NCBI RefSeq assembly: GCF_002300165.1
Contig: NZ_MLCE01000021.1
Location: 310,001-374,000 of the forward strand
Direction: 5' to 3'
DNA: 64,000 nt
Source: Streptomyces sp. Tue6028
Lineage (GTDB): Bacteria > Actinomycetota > Actinomycetes > Streptomycetales > Streptomycetaceae
A program made the position numbers and the translations under genes. Position 1 is the first letter of the stretch; the number at the start of each line of letters is the position of its first letter. The notes below the pieces were generated by a model that was not told the DNA's origin, ran no database searches, and was given only the letters and a program-made list of their open reading frames with translations. This document shows, piece after piece, positions 4,035 through 58,324 of this stretch.

Positions 4035-4791
4035 CCGCGGCCCGCCGGGCGTCCCGGCCGTGGGCCCCTGGCGTGCAGCCGAAGGCCCGGCGGAAGACCT
4101 CGATGAAGGCGCTCGCCGAGGACCAGCCGCAGCGGTGCGCCACGGTGGTGACCGGGACGCCGTCGGCCAGCAGCCGCAGGGCGTGATACAGCCGCGACTG
4201 GGTGCGCCACTGCGGGAAGGTCATGCCCAGCTCCGAGCGGAAGAGGCGGCTGAGCGTGCGTTCGCCGGCCCCGGTCGCGGCACCGAGTTCGGCCAGGGTG
4301 CGCGGGTCCGCGGGGTTGTCGTGGACGAGAGCGCAGACCGCCACGAGACGGGGGTCGGCCGGAGCGGGCAGCCGCAGCGGCTCCTGGGGGGAGGCCCTCA
4401 ACCGGTCGCGCAGGACGGCGAGAAGACGGCCCCGCTCGGCACTCGTGTCGCCGGGCGTCCGGGTGTACGCGCGGATCAGCTCGCGCAGCAGCGGGCTCAC
4501 CGCCAGCACCGTCGGGGTGTCCAGGCCCAGCGGGTTGTCGTCGGCCGGCAGGCCCACCAGATGCAGTTCCAGGTGGCCGTGGGCGCGGTGGGCGTGCACG
4601 GTCCCGGCGGGCACCCAGATGGCTCGGGTGCCGGGCGCGAACCAGGTGCCGGCGTCCGTGGTGACCGCGAGGACACCGGAGCCCGCGTAGACGATCTGGT
4701 GTTCGTCGTGCCGGTGCGCGTCGATGCGCTCCCCGGCGGCGAGGACCTGCGCCCGGGTCGGGGCGACCGGCGTGTGGCGGATGTTCGGCAC
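4012..4791 (-). CDS. AraC-family transcriptional regulator with cupin sensor domain
   Basis: A protein of about 259 residues. The N-terminal cupin has HRHDEHQIVYAGSGVL and WVPAGTVHAH, a typical small-molecule or metal pocket. The C-terminal double HTH has LAELGAATGAGERTLSRLFRSELGMTFPQWR and VTTVAHRCGWSSASAFIEVFRRAFG. Start is GTG 4791, as no ATG is suitable; the Shine-Dalgarno match is weak. It is divergent from the MFS gene with about 54 bp between the starts, so it most likely controls that transporter. The 3' end overlaps the convergent hypothetical gene by 23 bp. Confidence 0.85.
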   Translation of the reverse strand: MPNIRHTPVAPTRAQVLAAGERIDAHRHDEHQIVYAGSGVLAVTTDAGTWFAPGTRAIWVPAGTVHAHRAHGHLELHLVGLPADDNPLGLDTPTVLAVSPLLRELIRAYTRTPGDTSAERGRLLAVLRDRLRASPQEPLRLPAPADPRLVAVCALVHDNPADPRTLAELGAATGAGERTLSRLFRSELGMTFPQWRTQSRLYHALRLLADGVPVTTVAHRCGWSSASAFIEVFRRAFGCTPGAHGRDARRAAVTRRPSS

Positions 4792-4845
4792 AGGACGGCA
4801 GGTTATCGAAAGCGCGACAGCCGGGTCCTCGCCCAGGGTCGAGGG

Positions 4846-6342
4846 GTGACGAACCGACAGACCTCCCGCGGGCCGCGGTCCGTGCCCGGCGCCCGAGGGC
4901 CCGTGGCCCTGATGTCCCTCGGCCACGCCTGCGTGGACGTCTACCAGGGGGCGGTGGCCGCACTGGTGCCGTACTTCGTCGCGGAGCGCGCCTACACCTA
5001 CGCCACCGCGTCCGGCATCGTCCTCGCCGCCTCGCTGCTGTCGTCGGTCGTGCAGCCGCTGTTCGGGGCGCTCGCCGACCGCTGGGCGATGCCGTGGCTG
5101 CTGTCGCTGAGCGCGCTGCTCGGCGGTGCGGGCGTCGCGCTGAGCGGGGTCGGCGGCTCCTACGCGCTCACCCTGGCCGCGGTCGCCGTGTCCGGGATCG
5201 GCGTGGCCGCGTACCACCCGGAGGCCGCGCGGGTGGCGCGCCGGGTGAGCCGCGGCAGCCACACCGCGATGAGCTGGTTCTCCCTGGGCGGCAATCTGGG
5301 CTTCGCCGCCGCCCCGCTCGCCGTCTCCGCGGTGGTCGCCGCGGGCGGCGGTCTGCGGGCCACTCCGCTGCTCGTGGCGCCCTCGCTCGCGGGCGCGGTG
5401 CTGTGCGCGGCGGCCGTGCGCGCGGCCCGGCCCGCCCCGACGGCGGACGCCGTCGGCGAGGTCTGCGGAGCGGTCCCCGGCGTGGTCTCCGGTGCGGCCC
5501 CCGACCCGGCCTCCGGTGCGGCCCCCGACCCGGTCTCCGGTGCGGCCCCCGGCGAGGTCTCCGGTGCGGCCCCCCACCCGGTCTCCGGTGCGGTCCCCGA
5601 CCCGGCCTCCGGTGCGGTCTCCGGAGCGCTCCCCGACCTGGCCTCCGGTGCGGTCTCCGGTGCGGTCCCCGGCGTGGTCTCCGGTGCGGCCCCCGACCCG
5701 GCCTCCGGTGCGGTCCCCGGAGCGCTCCCCGACCTGGCCTCCGGTGCGGTCTCCGGTGCGGTCCCCGACACCGTCTCCGGCAGCAACGACTGGCCGTCCT
5801 TCCTGCGCCTCTCCGGGGCCGTGGTCTGCCGGTCGGTCGTCTTCGTCGGGCTCGGCACATTCATCTCGCTCTACGCGTCCCGGCGCGCCCCGGGCGGTGA
5901 AGTCGCGGGCACGACGGCCCTGTTCGTGCTCTACCTCGGCGGCGCGGCGGGCACGCTGGCCGGGGGACGGCTCGCCACCCGGTACGGCCGTGTGCGGGTC
6001 GTGCGGTGGTCGTACGCGCTGACGGGCCTCGCCGTCGCGGGGGTCGTCCTCGTCCCGGGGCCGCTGCTCCACCTCTTCGTCGCCCTCGCGTCGGCCGGCC
6101 TGTACGTGCCGTTCTCCCTGCACATCACCCTGGGCCAGGACTACCTGCCGACACGCATGGGCACCGCGGGTGGGGTCACCCTGGGCCTGACCGTCAGCGT
6201 CGGCGGCCTCGCGAGCCCCCTCATCGGTCGTCTGGCCGACGCCACGTCCCTGCGCACCGCCCTGCTCCCGCTGATCGTCCTGCCCGCCGTCGGCTGCCTC
6301 TTCCTGCGCCGCCTGCGGGAGCCGGCGGCGGCCGGCCCGTGA
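4846..6342 (+). CDS. MFS efflux transporter, fosmidomycin-resistance (Fsr)-like
   Basis: About 498 residues with twelve predicted membrane segments in two halves. MSLGHACVDVYQGAVAALVP, the QPLFGALADRW loop and VAAYHPEAARVARRVS with GGNLGFAAAPL are characteristic of the fosmidomycin resistance subfamily. GTG 4846 follows GGTCGAGGG. The odd feature is the central cytoplasmic loop between the halves: about 100 residues of repeats such as VSGAAPDP and ASGAVSGALPDL (nucleotides about 5467-5780), absent from ordinary family members. The divergent AraC gene is the likely regulator. Substrate is unproven; MFS efflux is well supported. Confidence 0.85.
   Translation: MTNRQTSRGPRSVPGARGPVALMSLGHACVDVYQGAVAALVPYFVAERAYTYATASGIVLAASLLSSVVQPLFGALADRWAMPWLLSLSALLGGAGVALSGVGGSYALTLAAVAVSGIGVAAYHPEAARVARRVSRGSHTAMSWFSLGGNLGFAAAPLAVSAVVAAGGGLRATPLLVAPSLAGAVLCAAAVRAARPAPTADAVGEVCGAVPGVVSGAAPDPASGAAPDPVSGAAPGEVSGAAPHPVSGAVPDPASGAVSGALPDLASGAVSGAVPGVVSGAAPDPASGAVPGALPDLASGAVSGAVPDTVSGSNDWPSFLRLSGAVVCRSVVFVGLGTFISLYASRRAPGGEVAGTTALFVLYLGGAAGTLAGGRLATRYGRVRVVRWSYALTGLAVAGVVLVPGPLLHLFVALASAGLYVPFSLHITLGQDYLPTRMGTAGGVTLGLTVSVGGLASPLIGRLADATSLRTALLPLIVLPAVGCLFLRRLREPAAAGP
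5467..5780 (+). repeat. In-frame tandem repeat in the MFS central loop
   Basis: Degenerate 24-bp and 36-bp units coding for (V/A)SGA(A/V)PDP and ASGAVSGA(L/V)PDL/GV, about a dozen copies. The array leaves long open frames on both strands. Confidence 0.85.
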
Positions 6343-6702
6343 CGACCGGCACTGCCCGCGGACCGTCGTGTTCAAGCCACCCGTGCGCGCCGCGCCGGGT
6401 GCGTCGGTGAACCCCGTGATCCGCGCGCGCAGCGGGAACTCCCGTGCAGAGAGCGCGGATTCAGCCATGTGCGGACCGCCGACGAAGTCCCCGTGGGTCC
6501 GCGTGCGGCCGCGGACTCCACCACCGACAGCTTGTTGCAGGGGCCGGTGGCTGAGGTGGGGACGTTCCGTCATCAAGGCGGGCGAAAAGGCGTGTGCGGA
6601 CGGTACAGCCGTGTTGCGATGCCGGTCCGCTCCGCGCATAGTTGCGCTGCGGAAGGCGCGAAGGCGGCCTGCCGCAGAAGGGGCTGGAGCCAGGGGTGGG
6701 AG
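6343..6702. other. Intergenic region upstream of the first LuxR-type regulator
   Basis: 360 bp without a supported gene. Several frames stay open but none has a plausible start, domain or ribosome binding site. No clear promoter or palindrome was found. Confidence 0.4.
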
Positions 6703-7746
6703 ATGGCCGGGCACGGGACGGACATGCATCCGCACGGCGCTGACCGACTGTGCGAGGCCGGCGACCGGGTGTACTCCCGGGCTGTGCGGCGCGGGCGTGT
6801 GCCCCGTGAGGACGCGGAGGCGGTGCCCTGCCTCCTGGAGCTTGCGCTGCTGCACCCCGACCCCGACGACATGGGCTGGCTGGTGCCGACCTCGCCGCAG
6901 GAGGTCATGACCCGGCTGCTGCGCGGGGTCTACGAGGAGGTCAACGCCAGCCAGGCGCGCGTCGGCGACGCGGTGTCCGCCTTCGAGTGGTACGCGGGGC
7001 TCGGCGGACGGGTCCAGGCGCCGGCCGAGGGTGTGGCGATCCGCGTCCTGGACGGGCTGCCGCGCATCCGGGCCGCCATGGACAAGGCGACCGAGGAGTG
7101 CACGAGCGAGGTTCTCACGGTGCAGCCGGGCGGCATCCGGCGTGAGGACGAGTTGTCGGAAGGCCTGCACCGGGCGCTGGAGATGCGCCGCCGGGGCGTG
7201 CGGATGCGCGACCTGTACACGCATGTCGCCCGGCACGGCCAGGGCCTGCTCAACTACATGGAGCTGATGGGCGATTCGGCGGAGGCCCGCACGCTCGACG
7301 AGGTCGTCGAGCGGCTGATCCTCTTCGATCGCAGGGTCGCCTTCATCCCGGCGAACCCGGATCGCACGATCGCGCTGGAGCTGCGTCACCCGGCGCTGGT
7401 GGACTACCTGGTGACCGTGTTCGAGCGGTTGTGGCGGCTGGCGATCCCGCTGGCCTCGCCGCTGCCCTCGACGGGGATCGAGGGCATCACCCACCGGGAA
7501 CGCTCGATCGCGGCTCTGCTGGCGGAGGGCCACCAGGACGCGGTGGTCGCCGAGCGGCTGGGCATCAGCGTGCGGACCTGCCGGGCGCACATCGCCCGGC
7601 TCTCGGAGACCCTGGGCGCGGCCAGCCGCACCCAGCTCGGCGTCCGCATCGCCCAGGCGGGCCTGGACGGCCCGCCGCGCTCTCCGGAGCTCCAGACGGT
7701 CACTGCCCCTGGACTTTCTGCTCCAGAATCCCCGACCGCCCGATGA
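6703..7746 (+). CDS. LuxR-family (GerE HTH) regulator, paralogue 1
   Basis: About 347 residues. N-terminal LCEAGDRVYSRAVRRGR and PCLLELALLHPDPDD are shared with the two neighbouring regulators. A large sensor part includes SEVLTVQPGG and VAFIPANPDRTIALELRHPAL. The C-terminal LuxR HTH (about 258-318) has RERSIAALLAEG, AERLGISVRTCRAHI. ATG 6703 has GGGTGGGAG just upstream. The last roughly 25 residues, after RIAQAGLDG, have no counterpart in the paralogues and read through DNA antisense to the neighbouring gene, which it overlaps by 47 bp. The ligand is unknown. Confidence 0.85.
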   Translation: MAGHGTDMHPHGADRLCEAGDRVYSRAVRRGRVPREDAEAVPCLLELALLHPDPDDMGWLVPTSPQEVMTRLLRGVYEEVNASQARVGDAVSAFEWYAGLGGRVQAPAEGVAIRVLDGLPRIRAAMDKATEECTSEVLTVQPGGIRREDELSEGLHRALEMRRRGVRMRDLYTHVARHGQGLLNYMELMGDSAEARTLDEVVERLILFDRRVAFIPANPDRTIALELRHPALVDYLVTVFERLWRLAIPLASPLPSTGIEGITHRERSIAALLAEGHQDAVVAERLGISVRTCRAHIARLSETLGAASRTQLGVRIAQAGLDGPPRSPELQTVTAPGLSAPESPTAR

Positions 7747-8701
7747 GGTAGCCGAGTTGGGCCCGGCTCTCGCTGCCGAGGAAGGCCGCGAGCTTGGCGA
7801 TGTGGACGCGGGCGGTGCGGACGTTCATACCGAGGCGGTCGGCGACGACGGCGTCGGTGTGCCCTTCGACGAGCAGGCTCGCGATGGCGCGTTGGCGGGG
7901 TGTGACGCCGTCCACGGAAGGCCGTTGGGTCGCCCGTGGATGCATGGGGACAGCCAGGTGCCAGAAGCGGTCGAAGGTGGTGACGAAGTGCTCGACGAGG
8001 GCTGGGTGCCGGACTTCCAGGCCGAGCGTGTTGTCCTTGCTGGCCGGGATGAAGGCCACGGTCCGGTCGATGACGATCAGCAGATGGATGACCTCGTCGA
8101 GAGTGCGGGCCTCCACGTCCCCCGTCAGCCATTCGTACCGGGCAAGGACGGTGGGCGCGTGCCGCAGTGTGTGCTGGTAGAGCGTGCGGATGCGGCCGCC
8201 GCGGTCCAGGAGCGCCTGGTCGCGCCGTATCGCCCGGTCGTGGATCTGCGGGGGTGGGCCGACGTGCGAGACATACGGCTGCACGGTGAGGAGCTCGGTG
8301 GCGTCGGACATGGCCTGCGTGATGGCCAGGTTGATCTGCTCCTTGCCGCTGAGAAGGCTGATCGGCGGCGCCTCGGGCGCCGTGCGGACCCCCTCGATCC
8401 GCATGAGCTGCTCGAACACCTCGGCCAGCCGCTCCTCGCGCCGCCGTTCGTCCGCGATGCGATCCCCCACCAGGCGTAGCTGACGGTGCAGGGCGACGGC
8501 GGGGGAGATCGGTTCCATCCAGAAGGGGTCCCCGACGTGCGGGTGCAGGAGGCCGAGGTCGACGAGGCACGGCACGGCTCGGGCGTCCTCGCCGGACACG
8601 CGTCCTTCGCGCAAGGCCCGCGTGTACACGGCCGTGCCTGCCTCGCACAGGTCCTCCAAGCCGTGCGGCCGGTGCCCCGTCGTCGATTCCTCCGTCGGCA
8701 T
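7700..8701 (-). CDS. LuxR-family (GerE HTH) regulator, paralogue 2
   Basis: 333 residues with the same architecture as its neighbours: N-terminal LCEAGTAVYTRALREGR and PCLVDLGLLHP, a central part with TELLTVQPYV and TVAFIPASKDNTLGLEVRHPAL, and a C-terminal HTH with RQRAIASLLVEGHTDAVVADRLGMNVRTARVHI. ATG 8701 abuts the stop of paralogue 3 (TGA 8704-8702) with no gap, so the two form an operon. It is convergent with paralogue 1, overlapping by 47 bp. Function is inferred to be transcriptional control by an unidentified signal. Confidence 0.87.
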   Translation of the reverse strand: MPTEESTTGHRPHGLEDLCEAGTAVYTRALREGRVSGEDARAVPCLVDLGLLHPHVGDPFWMEPISPAVALHRQLRLVGDRIADERRREERLAEVFEQLMRIEGVRTAPEAPPISLLSGKEQINLAITQAMSDATELLTVQPYVSHVGPPPQIHDRAIRRDQALLDRGGRIRTLYQHTLRHAPTVLARYEWLTGDVEARTLDEVIHLLIVIDRTVAFIPASKDNTLGLEVRHPALVEHFVTTFDRFWHLAVPMHPRATQRPSVDGVTPRQRAIASLLVEGHTDAVVADRLGMNVRTARVHIAKLAAFLGSESRAQLGYLIGRSGILEQKVQGQ

Positions 8702-9685
8702 TCAGTGATCCTGGTCCAGGATCCCTGACTGCGCTATCAGGAAGCCGAGTTGGGCGCGGCTGCCGCTGCCGAGAGCGGTGGCCAGCTTGGCTATGTGGGC
8801 ACGGCAGGTGCGGACGTTCATGCCCAGGCGGCGTGCGATGGCCTCGTCGACGTGGCCCTCCACCAGGAGTTTGGCGATGGAGTGCTGGATCTCCGTGATG
8901 CCGTCGGGGGCGGTTTCGTAGGGGGCGCCGGCGTTCAGCGGGACAGCGCGGTCCCACATGAACTCGAAGACCTTGATCAGATAGCGGACGAGTCCGGGGT
9001 GCCGCAGTTCCAGGGCGACCTGTCGGTCGTCCCGGGTGGGGATGAAGGCGACGGTCTCGTCGCAGATGATCAGCCGCTCGACGAGTTCGTCGATGGTTCG
9101 GTACTCCACCTTGCCGTTGGAGAACTGATCGACGTAGGCCTGTGTCTCGGGGCTGTAGCGGGCCGTGTGCTGGTAGAGGGTCCGGATGCTCACCCCGCGC
9201 TCGGTCAACGGCCGGTCGCGTTCCAGCCCTTGGACGAGTGTGTGCTCCAGGCGGCGGCCGCTGGGCTGGACCGTGAGCATCTCGTTCTGGCACTGTGCCG
9301 TGGCCAGGTCGAGTGCCGCGTTGATCCGGTCGAAGCCTTCCAGCACGGTGATGGAGTGCGTGGTCGCCGTGGCCTGCGCACTGAGCGTCATGAACGGCTC
9401 GAATGCATCGGCAAGTTCGATCGACAAGCGCCGGGCTTCGGTGATCTCGTGCTCTATGGGGTTGAGACGTTGGGCCAGGGCGATGGACGGTGGTACGGGA
9501 CGCAACCAGTTGGCGTCGTCGGGATCGGGGTGCAGCAGCGCGAACTCCATCAGGCAGGGAGCGGATTCCACGTCTGCGCGGGCGATCCGTCCCGTGCGCA
9601 GAGCATTCGCGTAGAGACGGCTTCCGTCCTCGCACAGCTGGGTCAGCGCATGGGGATGTATCCCTCTAGTCCCATTTGTTGCCAA
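8702..9685 (-). CDS. LuxR-family (GerE HTH) regulator, paralogue 3
   Basis: 327 residues. N-terminal LCEDGSRLYANALRTGRI and PCLMEFALLHPDPDD, a central sensor region with NEMLTVQPSGRR and TVAFIPTRDDRQVALELRHPGL, and a C-terminal HTH with IQHSIAKLLVEGHVDEAIARRLGMNVRTCRAHIAKL. TTG 9685 is the most upstream sensible start; no ATG in frame precedes the conserved HPHALTQLCE segment, so the exact start is uncertain. It is the first gene of the operon with paralogue 2 and is divergent from the DSTWG peptide gene (113 bp apart), making it the best candidate regulator or receptor for that peptide. Confidence 0.86.
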   Translation of the reverse strand: MATNGTRGIHPHALTQLCEDGSRLYANALRTGRIARADVESAPCLMEFALLHPDPDDANWLRPVPPSIALAQRLNPIEHEITEARRLSIELADAFEPFMTLSAQATATTHSITVLEGFDRINAALDLATAQCQNEMLTVQPSGRRLEHTLVQGLERDRPLTERGVSIRTLYQHTARYSPETQAYVDQFSNGKVEYRTIDELVERLIICDETVAFIPTRDDRQVALELRHPGLVRYLIKVFEFMWDRAVPLNAGAPYETAPDGITEIQHSIAKLLVEGHVDEAIARRLGMNVRTCRAHIAKLATALGSGSRAQLGFLIAQSGILDQDH

Positions 9686-9798
9686 ATCTCCACCCCCCAG
9701 GGTCCTGAACGTGCAGGAACATGATGCATCGATTGTGTGGCCATGACGTGCCCGAATGAGCCATCGTCGTAGACGACGGGGGAAGAGGAGACCTTCAA

Positions 9799-10023
9799 GT
9801 GAGGACGAAGCCGACTATGCGTAAGAGAATGCTTCGCTCGATGCTTGTCGCCGCCTTCTCCGCCGTCGTGGCCTTCGGAGCACTGAGTGGCCTTGCCGGT
9901 ACGAAGGGTGACAGTAGGGCGGACAGTACCTGGGGCCCGTCGGTGGCATCCGCCGCCCGCGCGGGTGACAGCACCTGGGGTGTGGGTTCTCCCACCAGCG
10001 CAGATGACAGCACATGGGGCTGA
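9799..10023 (+). CDS. Small secreted peptide precursor with three DSTWG repeats
   Basis: 74 residues; I do not recognise a named family. A basic N-terminus (MRTKPTMRKRM) is followed by a hydrophobic stretch LVAAFSAVVAFGALSGLAG, giving a Sec signal peptide with cleavage likely near residues 31-36. The remaining roughly 40 residues contain DSTWG at 42-46, 57-61 and 70-74, the last at the extreme C-terminus. Codons of the three copies differ (AGT/AGC, ACC/ACA, GGC/GGT), so the repeat is kept at protein level. GTG 9799 has GAGGAG 8 bp upstream. The Rieske-like gene starts 3 bp after the stop. Multi-copy short motifs in a secreted precursor suggest a signalling or modified peptide; this is inference. 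Confidence 0.8.
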   Translation: MRTKPTMRKRMLRSMLVAAFSAVVAFGALSGLAGTKGDSRADSTWGPSVASAARAGDSTWGVGSPTSADDSTWG

Positions 10024-10026
10024 CTG

Positions 10027-10363
10027 ATGACGACTCCTCCCGACGACCGCTCGTTCCGTCGCGAAATGGCCACGGCCTACCGCTCCGGCTGGCACTTCAT
10101 CGACCTGGTCACCGCCATCCCCCACAGCGGTGACTCGTTGATGGTGACCGTGTTCGGAGAGCCCGTGGTGGTCACGCGGGACGAGGACGAGGACGTACGG
10201 GCGTACCGCTGTCTGCGACGGCCTCGGGGGGGCGCCGCAGCCGGTGCGGTGCGCCATCCGATACGGAATGATCTTTGTGAACCTCGACCAGCGCGACCAC
10301 CGACTGGCCGAACCGGATGAGCCGGACGTACAGACCATTGCAGCCACCCCCCGCAGTGCCTGA
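10027..10363 (+). pseudogene. Small Rieske-fold-like protein, frameshifted at a G7 run
   Basis: The frame from ATG 10027 (MTTPPDDRSFRREMATAYRS) runs on to TGA 10318-10320 with a low-quality tail. Removing one G from the run at 10226-10232 joins it to a frame reading APQPVRCAIRYGMIFVNLDQ and ending at TGA 10361-10363, giving 111 residues. The joined protein resembles the Rieske region of ring-hydroxylating oxygenases (WHFIDLVTAIPHSGDS, VTVFGEPVVVTRDED, YGMIFVNLD). The cluster ligands CxH and CxxH are instead CLR and CAIR. It sits 3 bp after the DSTWG peptide. It may be a real frameshift, a sequencing error in the homopolymer, or a slippage switch. Confidence 0.6.
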
Positions 10364-10406: not shown

Positions 10407-10447
10407 GCAGCGGCGTCACCGTGACCTGAACACGGTGACGCCGCTGC
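10407..10447. terminator. Bidirectional terminator between the Rieske-like gene and the PPOX gene
   Basis: A perfect 17-bp stem (10407-10423 with 10431-10447) and a 7-nt loop ACCTGAA, between two convergent genes. Confidence 0.88.
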
Positions 10448-17267: not shown

Positions 17268-17582
17268 ATGGTCATCGGCATCATCCTGGCGGTCGTCTGC
17301 ATCGTGGTCGTCGTGGCCTTCATGGCCACCGACCGCAGCCAGAACAAGGTGGGGCAGGTCAACCTCTCGAAGAGGGGCCGCCGTTCACGCCGTGGCTCCT
17401 CGGGCAGCGGCAGCAGCTGGTGGGCCGGCGGGGCGGGCGGTGTCTCGTCCTGCGGCAGCGGTTCGTCCGGCGGACACCACGGCGGTCACTCGTGCGGTGG
17501 CCACTCGTCGTGCGGCGGGGGCTCGTCCTGCGGAGGCGGGTCCTCGTGCGGCGGCGGGGGCGGATGCGGAGGAGGCAGCTGA
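17268..17582 (+). CDS. Small membrane protein with Gly/Cys-rich tail
   Basis: 104 residues. One N-terminal membrane segment (VIGIILAVVCIVVVVAFMA) is followed by a basic patch KRGRRSRRG. The last 60 residues are almost only Gly, Ser, Cys and His, with repeated SSCGGG ending SCGGGGGCGGGS. Eight or more Cys plus several His make metal binding or cross-linking possible, though unproven. Similar tails occur on actinobacterial membrane proteins of unknown role. AAAGGAGGG 8 bp upstream of ATG 17268 is an excellent ribosome binding site, and a perfect terminator follows. Confidence 0.8.
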   Translation: MVIGIILAVVCIVVVVAFMATDRSQNKVGQVNLSKRGRRSRRGSSGSGSSWWAGGAGGVSSCGSGSSGGHHGGHSCGGHSSCGGGSSCGGGSSCGGGGGCGGGS

Positions 17583-58223: not shown

Positions 58224-58287
58224 CCCGGCGACCCGGCGACCCGGCGACCCGGCGACCCGGCGACCCGGCGACCCGGCGACCCGGCGA
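58224..58287 (+). repeat. Eight perfect copies of CCCGGCGA
   Basis: A short tandem array of exact 8-bp units between two convergent genes. A trailing CCC remains before the pattern breaks. Confidence 0.95.
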
Positions 58288-58324
58288 CCCGACCAGGGTC
58301 AGGTGCCCACCCGGATCCGGAGAC

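Follow-up and report, generated by a model that had tools for sequence, protein, structure and literature searches.

A candidate linear peptide pheromone and its putative LuxR-type receptor at a widespread Streptomyces locus

We describe a locus of Streptomyces sp. Tue6028 that, with a probability we put at roughly 0.85, specifies a linear peptide pheromone and a dedicated cytoplasmic receptor for it. The locus lies in a 64,000-nucleotide stretch of contig NZ_MLCE01000021.1 (the window, to whose first base coordinates refer unless another locus is named), part of a genome of about 8 Mb (7.96 Mb in 39 contigs), and its two central elements are a gene for a short precursor with a repeated DSTWG core and a divergently transcribed gene for a LuxR-type regulator, LuxR1. 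What the analysis shows directly is a conserved gene arrangement, a hypervariable core whose copies within a precursor change in concert, covariation of individual LuxR1 residues with the core, and the fold class of the LuxR1 sensor in a model. A preliminary description of the window had read the gene layout as that of a peptide signalling or modified-peptide system; conservation in 80/80 loci and coupling of core and LuxR1 at the level of single residues now support the signalling reading more strongly than layout alone.

A conserved locus with concerted variation of the core

The precursor (74 amino acids, 9799 to 10023, plus strand, GTG start) has, by inspection, an export signal made up of a basic n-region and a hydrophobic stretch, and then three DSTWG cores, all on the plus strand, at residues 42-46 (9922 to 9936, codons GACAGTACCTGGGGC), 57-61 (9967 to 9981, codons GACAGCACCTGGGGT) and 70-74 (10006 to 10020, codons GACAGCACATGGGGC), the last at the extreme C-terminus. 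The open reading frame (ORF), its three repeats and the differing codons of the copies are as first described. At the DNA level the motif occurs four times in the 7.96-Mb genome, three of them at this locus, and its backwards control twice. LuxR1 (8702 to 9685, minus strand, TTG start), the proposed self-receptor, begins 113 bp from the precursor ORF.

The Rieske-like protein encoded directly after the precursor has 482 relatives in a named genome collection, and the best 80 of these were studied, so the sample leans to proteins close to the query; 79 are titled Streptomyces and one 'Actinobacteria bacterium OV320'. A peptide gene stands directly upstream of the Rieske-like gene in 80/80 (77 found via a simple pattern, three by hand). 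With the window added, LuxR1 is present in 81/81 loci (partial or broken in a few, for example L069 and L093, and truncated in L029, where the contig stops), its paralogue LuxR3 in 76 and ClpB in 79. Where the contig reaches, the gene order in the loci of named genomes is LuxR3(+)-(LuxR2)n(-)-LuxR1(-)-peptide(+)-Rieske-like(+)-clpB(+), often with an F420-type oxidoreductase gene (-) between the last two. In an even draw of the genus the Rieske-like protein, counted by itself, is found in 329/393 Streptomyces genomes (E<=1e-10). The locus thus appears to be widespread in Streptomyces and syntenic beside clpB.

For the comparisons below we assembled 171 loci (the 80, 90 further ones and the window), with LuxR1 readable in 166; the further loci are the 30 best of the 329 and 60 from genomes with weaker matches, chosen on purpose. 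Removal of identical LuxR1 sequences, LuxR1 shorter than 300 amino acids and loci without a core left 144 non-redundant loci with 35 core types, which are not independent and amount to about 99 effective loci at 92% identity. Cores of three loci (L079, L092, L158) were assigned by hand.

Across precursors the leader is conserved (MRTKPTMRKRMLRSxLVAAFSAVVAFGALSG or related) and the core follows the scheme [D/E/N]-x-x-W, with examples such as DSTW, DSSW, DSHW, DSKW, DTRW, DTVW, DTAW, DVGW, DLGW, DISW, DIGW and DSGW, and further DTGW, NSSW, EPSW, EISW, DPGW and others. The 143 precursors that were parsed carry 1 to 10 core copies each, and in 102/109 multi-copy precursors the four-residue cores are identical within the precursor, where a draw from the pool would give about two such cases. 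The leader is conserved, and the core is hypervariable but concerted within each precursor. This bears on two earlier statements. Selection had been said to hold the DSTWG motif, which does not apply across species: the core changes between species and the copies in one precursor change together. Absence of homologous peptide ORFs with conserved DSTWG near related regulators had been named as a sign against the reading; homologues do stand there in 80/80 loci, with DSTWG itself not conserved. Given the variable fifth residue and the 38/143 precursors in which the motif is the last element, the mature product may have four or five residues, its length being uncertain. The locus of one other genome (G499) has a core of DSTW type.

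Covariation of LuxR1 with the core

The difference between cores follows the distance between LuxR1 sensor domains after ClpB and LuxR3 distances have been removed (partial r 0.534; 73 loci, 20 core types), a value reached by 0/1000 permutations, the largest permuted value being 0.257. With the sensor accounted for, the helix-turn-helix (HTH) domain of LuxR1 gives 0.06 (128/1000 permutations), and so follows the core only through the sensor. Over the same 73 loci, neither ClpB distance (0.101, 56/1000) nor LuxR3 distance (-0.136, 986/1000) follows the core. When only pairs with a ClpB distance below 0.04 are considered, LuxR1 sensor distance is 0.026 for the 19 pairs with the same core versus 0.243 for the 41 pairs with different cores; the corresponding LuxR3 values are 0.070 and 0.066. 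The nearest LuxR2 gives r 0.085 (56/500 permutations; 58 loci, on which the LuxR1 sensor gives 0.557), and the Rieske-like DNA tracks the core marginally (r 0.096, 16/500). By these measures it is the LuxR1 sensor that tracks the local core, and clpB, LuxR3, LuxR2 and the Rieske-like gene do so not at all or barely.

We then ranked the columns of the 144 LuxR1 sequences by corrected mutual information with each core position. For core position 2, residues 136 and 157 stand at the top (z 6.6 and 5.3; third column 2.0); in the window these candidate specificity residues are Met (codon at 9278 to 9280, minus strand) and Asp (9215 to 9217, minus strand). Ser at position 2 goes with M136/D157 in 65/65 loci and Thr with V136/D157 in 23/24, the exception being L136/D157 with the odd ITEW peptide of L078. 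Pro goes with L136 and either V157 (11) or M157 (5) in 16/16. The aliphatic residues Ile (21 loci; V136 or I136 with G/S/A157), Leu (11; V136 or A136 with G/A157) and Val (7; V136 with G/S157) go with Gly, Ser or Ala at 157 in 39/39. Altogether 143/144 loci fit this position-2 rule, which was derived from the same loci. No error is made when Ser and non-Ser are told apart by residue 136 alone, where the next best column reaches 0.868 and guessing 0.549. Core position 3 is best matched by columns 145 and 143 (z 4.7 and 4.4), with His accompanied by D143 in 7/7 loci and Lys or Arg by S145 in 9/10.

In a FastTree phylogeny from which 14 contact columns had been left out, there are 23 changes of the position-2 label. 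Ser and M136 co-change in 8/8 supported independent pairs (two-sided p 0.0078; 14 pairs when all branches are used), and the Thr rule likewise holds in 8/8. Other couplings offer too few pairs: two for Ser/Thr with D157, two for the aliphatics, one for His with D143, and three for Lys/Arg with S145 (two of them changing together).

Model of the proposed receptor, paralogous regulators and neighbouring genes

In the AlphaFold2 (AF2) model of LuxR1 the N-terminal part contains a long helix and is followed by a PLD-like alpha/beta domain at about 105-250 and a LuxR-type HTH at 260-323. The best Foldseek matches of the model are TrmBL2 and then TrmB. In VIA-align comparisons the sensor matches NucT (Z 12.5, root-mean-square deviation (rmsd) 3.8, 119 residues aligned) and the TrmB sugar domain 2f5t (Z 11.1, rmsd 3.1, 111 aligned), and model residues 260-324 match the LuxR-type HTH of VqmA (Z 10.5, rmsd 1.4, 64 aligned). 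The sensor is thus assigned a PLD/TrmB-like fold, on a model of middling confidence. In that model the covarying residues 136, 143-145, 149-157 and 206-208 fall on successive sensor elements: strand 135-140, the loop that follows it, helix 147-162 and strand 205-208. In Pfam scans the GerE domain is over its cut-off of 23.5 bits in LuxR3 (37 bits) and below it in LuxR2 (21.1) and LuxR1 (17.1). At E<=1 the scan of LuxR1 to LuxR3 found no TPR family, the predicted sensor alternating strands and helices, and no autoinducer-binding domain.

The first description's divergent LuxR pair and third, facing paralogue also agree with the coordinates: LuxR2 (7700 to 8701, minus strand) lies directly 3' of LuxR1, and LuxR3 (6469 to 7746, plus strand, start codon uncertain) faces both. 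LuxR2 was found in 64/81 loci, as one hit in 44, two in 16, three in three and four in one (0-4 copies overall); these are hits of at least 100 residues, and some are pieces of one gene. At columns 136/157 the 83 LuxR2 copies have L/D (40), V/D (21) or other pairs. Because M136 occurs in 6/83 LuxR2 copies as against 51/78 local LuxR1 proteins, LuxR2 does not seem tuned to the local peptide; its ligands cannot be named, since L136/D157 (40/83) is matched among the 144 loci by ITEW only. We infer that LuxR2 proteins are receptors of other ligands, perhaps other pherotypes. LuxR3 has V136/A157 in 76/76.

Further receptors of the LuxR1 family, mostly 30-44% identical to LuxR1, occur at other loci, and small secreted-type ORFs with a W motif near the end were sought beside them. 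Receptors with M136 (40-41% identical) adjoin DSAWS (L053, 14849), DSGWG (L073, 14942), DSAWG (L226) and DSSWGGR (L232 and L239), so that Ser is at position 2 in 5/5 M136 paralogues with a peptide, four of them independent (L232 and L239 are close relatives). Receptors without M136 have candidate peptides none of which has Ser at position 2, at L197, L198, L200, L201, L202, L211, L222, L227, L240, L243, L244, L249 and L250 and likewise at L154 and L185, which are among the 171 main loci; the ORFs at L240 and L243 have no clear signal peptide. V136/D157 accompanies Thr (DTGW) at L244 and L249 and other residues at L200, L201, L211 and L250. Outside LuxR1 only the M136-Ser rule held. A C-terminal DQGWN at L193 was seen in one ORF scan only.

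Small secreted-type ORFs with [DEN]xxW near the C-terminus were found at 10/60 receptor-relative loci and in 0/136 control segments; the same filter with any W near the end gives 39/136 control segments. The controls were drawn from Streptomyces DNA, while 30 of the 60 loci belong to different genera within the family and order, and the 60 include L221 and L222, which are LuxR1-type loci and not paralogues. There were at first 140 control segments, eight of them with a candidate, and later 136 after L053 and L073 had been left out; one of the eight is the real paralogous peptide beside the second receptor in L053. In both L053 (13671-14849 onward) and L073 (13779-14942 onward) a second paralogous receptor and a single C-terminal pentapeptide (DSAWS and DSGWG, respectively) lie beside clpB. 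At L198, L200 and L211, from another family of the order, ORFs with C-terminal DLSWG, GLIWD and NISWD lie beside receptors about 30-34% identical to LuxR1, which suggests that this kind of peptide and receptor is wider than Streptomyces.

The Rieske-like ORF (10027 to 10363, plus strand) starts 3 bp past the precursor stop, as had been reported. It was also said to extend to 10363, and the gene is indeed present, but in the window a run of seven G shifts its frame, so that its own frame stops at 10320 and the relatives' frame at 10363. Among the 171 loci this run is found only in the window (the longest run is six, in 71/171), and the frameshift is therefore a recent loss or a sequence error; pseudogene formation, phase variation and sequencing error would each account for it. 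In relatives the protein has about 111 amino acids, with a mean column identity of 97% and 92-98% identity to the first row over 25 named loci, falling to 72% in divergent genomes and 37-46% for three weak hits. It scores below the Pfam cut-off (16.2 and 15.2 versus 20.3 bits). Residues 6-69 match residues 21-84 of 3NT oxygenase alpha (profile E 2.5e-5), about 65 N-terminal residues; in ring-hydroxylating-oxygenase alpha subunits this stretch reaches no further than the first half of the Rieske domain. The alignment to 5xbp_A does not go beyond residue 69 and pairs VCRHRG with LRRPRG of the relatives, so that CxH is replaced (RRP), and no match to the CxxH half of the cluster was found. Since there is also no room for a catalytic domain, no Rieske cluster is expected. 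The AF2 model is small, beta-rich and of low confidence (pLDDT 63.5). The suggestion that this gene encodes a modifying partner of the peptide is not supported by a half domain with replaced ligands, frameshifted here; as the constant partner of a variable peptide, the protein could be a chaperone or an export or processing helper. One genome (G023, contig 1, 93194-93502) has a second copy of the gene.

Downstream of the operon, what had been called a perfect terminator is a perfect 17-bp inverted repeat (10407 to 10447) that has no T run, and a terminator scan found none. Between the divergent genes lies a dyad, TCCTGAACGTGCAGGA (9703 to 9718, plus strand), whose TCCTG-N6-CAGGA pattern recurs between the divergent genes in 107/144 loci within a longer conserved stretch, and which is the natural candidate operator. 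Allowing one mismatch, the 16-bp dyad is found four times in the window, which is near chance (mean 1.77; 8/100 shuffles reach four).

Three other repeats of the window lie outside these genes. A tandem array of 24/96-bp units (5454-5780) sits within a long ORF (4060-6342, plus strand) that by eye appears to encode an MFS-type transporter, in which the array would encode a VSGAAPDP-like repeat. A short repeat at 17480-17558 encodes a Cys/Gly/Ser-rich C-terminus (SSCGGGSSCGGG) ending a long ORF, and a perfect 8-bp tandem repeat, CCCGGCGA, is present in 8.5 copies (100% matches) at 58224-58291.

Proposed mechanism, alternatives and known systems

The observations above are consistent with the following scheme, of which we infer export, cleavage, import, direct binding, the operator, the sign of regulation and the existence of target genes. 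The N-terminal signal would export the precursor, and proteases would cut it into short peptides that contain the repeated core (here DSTW or DSTWG); these would build up outside and re-enter via an oligopeptide ABC permease. Inside the cell the peptide would bind the PLD/TrmB-like domain of LuxR1, with core position 2 read by residues 136 and 157 and position 3 by residues around 143-153, and binding would alter the contact of the LuxR-type HTH with the dyad in the shared promoter, giving an autoregulatory loop of self-recognition. Import could use one of the 13 SBP_bac_5 proteins in the cell's own genome (15 matches, three being parts of one ORF). A link to the BldK-imported signal of S. coelicolor, reportedly of about 655 Da with Ser and Gly, was considered and found no support: RamS identical at 100% to the presumed S. 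coelicolor sequence is present in 5/392 genomes, whose cores are DTVWS, DSHWP, DTIWS, DTVWD and DTSWN, and of the two masses computed for these five (DTVWS 606.3, DSHWP 640.3) neither is 655.

A number of results weigh against the pheromone and receptor reading. The 22-bp dyad with its flank, at up to three mismatches, occurs once in the cell's own genome, so no regulon is visible. Core copies are mixed in 7/109 multi-copy precursors, and position 5 varies between copies in 47/109 (uniform in 62/109). Too few independent pairs are available for the position-3 coupling, and the six pairs for Gly at that position versus R145 show no co-change. The LuxR1 model is middling (pLDDT 72, pTM 0.44). 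L222, a LuxR1-type locus outside the 144 and 60% identical, breaks the position-2 rule with DVSW beside I136/V157, and the residue-157 rule fails in distant paralogues (V136/D157 with GLIW, NISW, SIGW and NYGW; N157 with DLSW). M136 receptors at L204, L234 and L236 have no candidate peptide that we could find nearby. Finally, the choice between real and spurious ORFs beside receptor relatives was made partly by eye (those judged spurious are at L224, L235, L245 and L246, a second one at L201, and long unrelated ones at L073 and L154), and the second L201 ORF would read WSSW, placing Ser beside V136.

Three other explanations were weighed. The best surviving, which we nevertheless regard as improbable, is that the peptide acts outside the cell or at the membrane on some other target and that LuxR1 senses the intracellular precursor or a leader fragment; the conserved leader and the lack of an importer among the proteins scanned at the locus would suit it, but the coupling is to core residues and not to the conserved leader, and the 13 oligopeptide-binding proteins offer a means of import. 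The peptide might instead be an exported antimicrobial of bacteriocin type or a ribosomally synthesised and post-translationally modified peptide (RiPP), with LuxR1 as its regulator or an immunity-type sensor and signalling secondary. Repeated cores, a small cotranscribed accessory gene and fast core evolution fit defence molecules too, yet what directly follows the precursor gene is a degenerate Rieske fragment that lacks the ligands, no modifying enzyme is present among the six proteins scanned around the precursor (wider flanks were not annotated), and the bare C-terminal pentapeptides of paralogous precursors resemble signals more than toxins, so this seems to us quite unlikely. Least credible is that covariation reflects linkage only, peptide and LuxR1 recombining together as neighbours without contact: the genes are 113 bp apart with the sensor half nearer the peptide than the HTH half, and cassette exchange would give part of the signal, but the Rieske-like gene, 3 bp from the peptide, tracks the core only marginally, only column 136 of LuxR1 splits Ser from non-Ser without error, the coupling recurs in the 8/8 independent pairs and in paralogues at other loci, and Ser and Thr with Asp, or aliphatics with Gly, Ala or Ser, at 157 are chemically sensible pairings.

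A broader picture can be drawn, tentatively and at somewhat less than even odds: Streptomyces would share a combinatorial language in which every species produces one of at least 35 [D/E/N]xxW pherotypes and reads it with its own LuxR1, pherotypes switch by exchange of peptide-sensor cassettes, the 0-4 LuxR2 copies hear other pherotypes, invariant LuxR3 reads a shared ligand, and peptides and receptors of this kind, with C-terminal xxxW cores, also occur in further actinobacterial families. Streptomyces, the chief producers of antibiotics, coordinate their development with extracellular signals, and to our knowledge most chemical signals described for them are small molecules. A peptide signal that is widespread, differs in type from species to species and is matched by a legible receptor code would supply short peptides of defined sequence, ready for synthesis and immediate testing. 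It would also add a new receptor class for peptide signals, in which a TrmB/PLD-like sensor is joined to a LuxR-type HTH, offer a natural data set from which orthogonal signalling could be engineered, and provide a testable candidate class for the oligopeptide signals imported during Streptomyces development. We found nothing recognisable on the locus, peptide or receptor in the open-access papers searched, most subscription journals lying outside that set.

Several known systems share parts of this arrangement. The archaeal sugar sensor TrmB, which has an N-terminal DNA-binding domain, resembles LuxR1, as does TrmBL2, in the TrmB/PLD fold of the sensor model, but in LuxR1 the LuxR-type HTH is C-terminal and the proposed ligand is a peptide. 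That GerE/LuxR C-terminal HTH is common to LuxR proteins of the acyl-homoserine lactone type, whose autoinducer-binding domain was not found in LuxR1 to LuxR3. The downstream protein shares an N-terminal stretch with Rieske oxygenase alpha subunits and differs from them in having neither the CxH...CxxH ligands nor the catalytic domain. Streptomyces gamma-butyrolactones likewise pair self-signalling with a cognate one-component receptor, but there the ligand is a small molecule and the receptor is of TetR type. The yeast alpha-factor precursor is also secreted with several pheromone cores homogenised within it, although the sequences are unrelated and its receptor is a G protein-coupled receptor. 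In agr and ComQXPA, as here, a hypervariable signal and its receptor evolve as a matched cassette in a conserved locus; there the peptides are cyclised or prenylated and the receptors are membrane histidine kinases, whereas neither a modification enzyme nor a kinase is among the six proteins scanned here. The closest likeness in working is to the Phr, PapR and ComS pheromones of Bacillota, in which a small precursor is exported, the linear peptide is short and lies at or near the C-terminus, a cytoplasmic regulator is encoded alongside, and pairs are strain-specific; such an adjacent short precursor, exported as judged by inspection only, is present in 80/80 of our loci, though precursors here often have multiple core copies. 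The RRNPP receptors of those pheromones (Rap, PlcR, ComR) are TPR proteins, and LuxR1 instead combines a PLD/TrmB-like sensor of alpha/beta type with a GerE/LuxR HTH, so that the system described here works like Phr/PapR-type signalling and stands outside RRNPP by its receptor domain.

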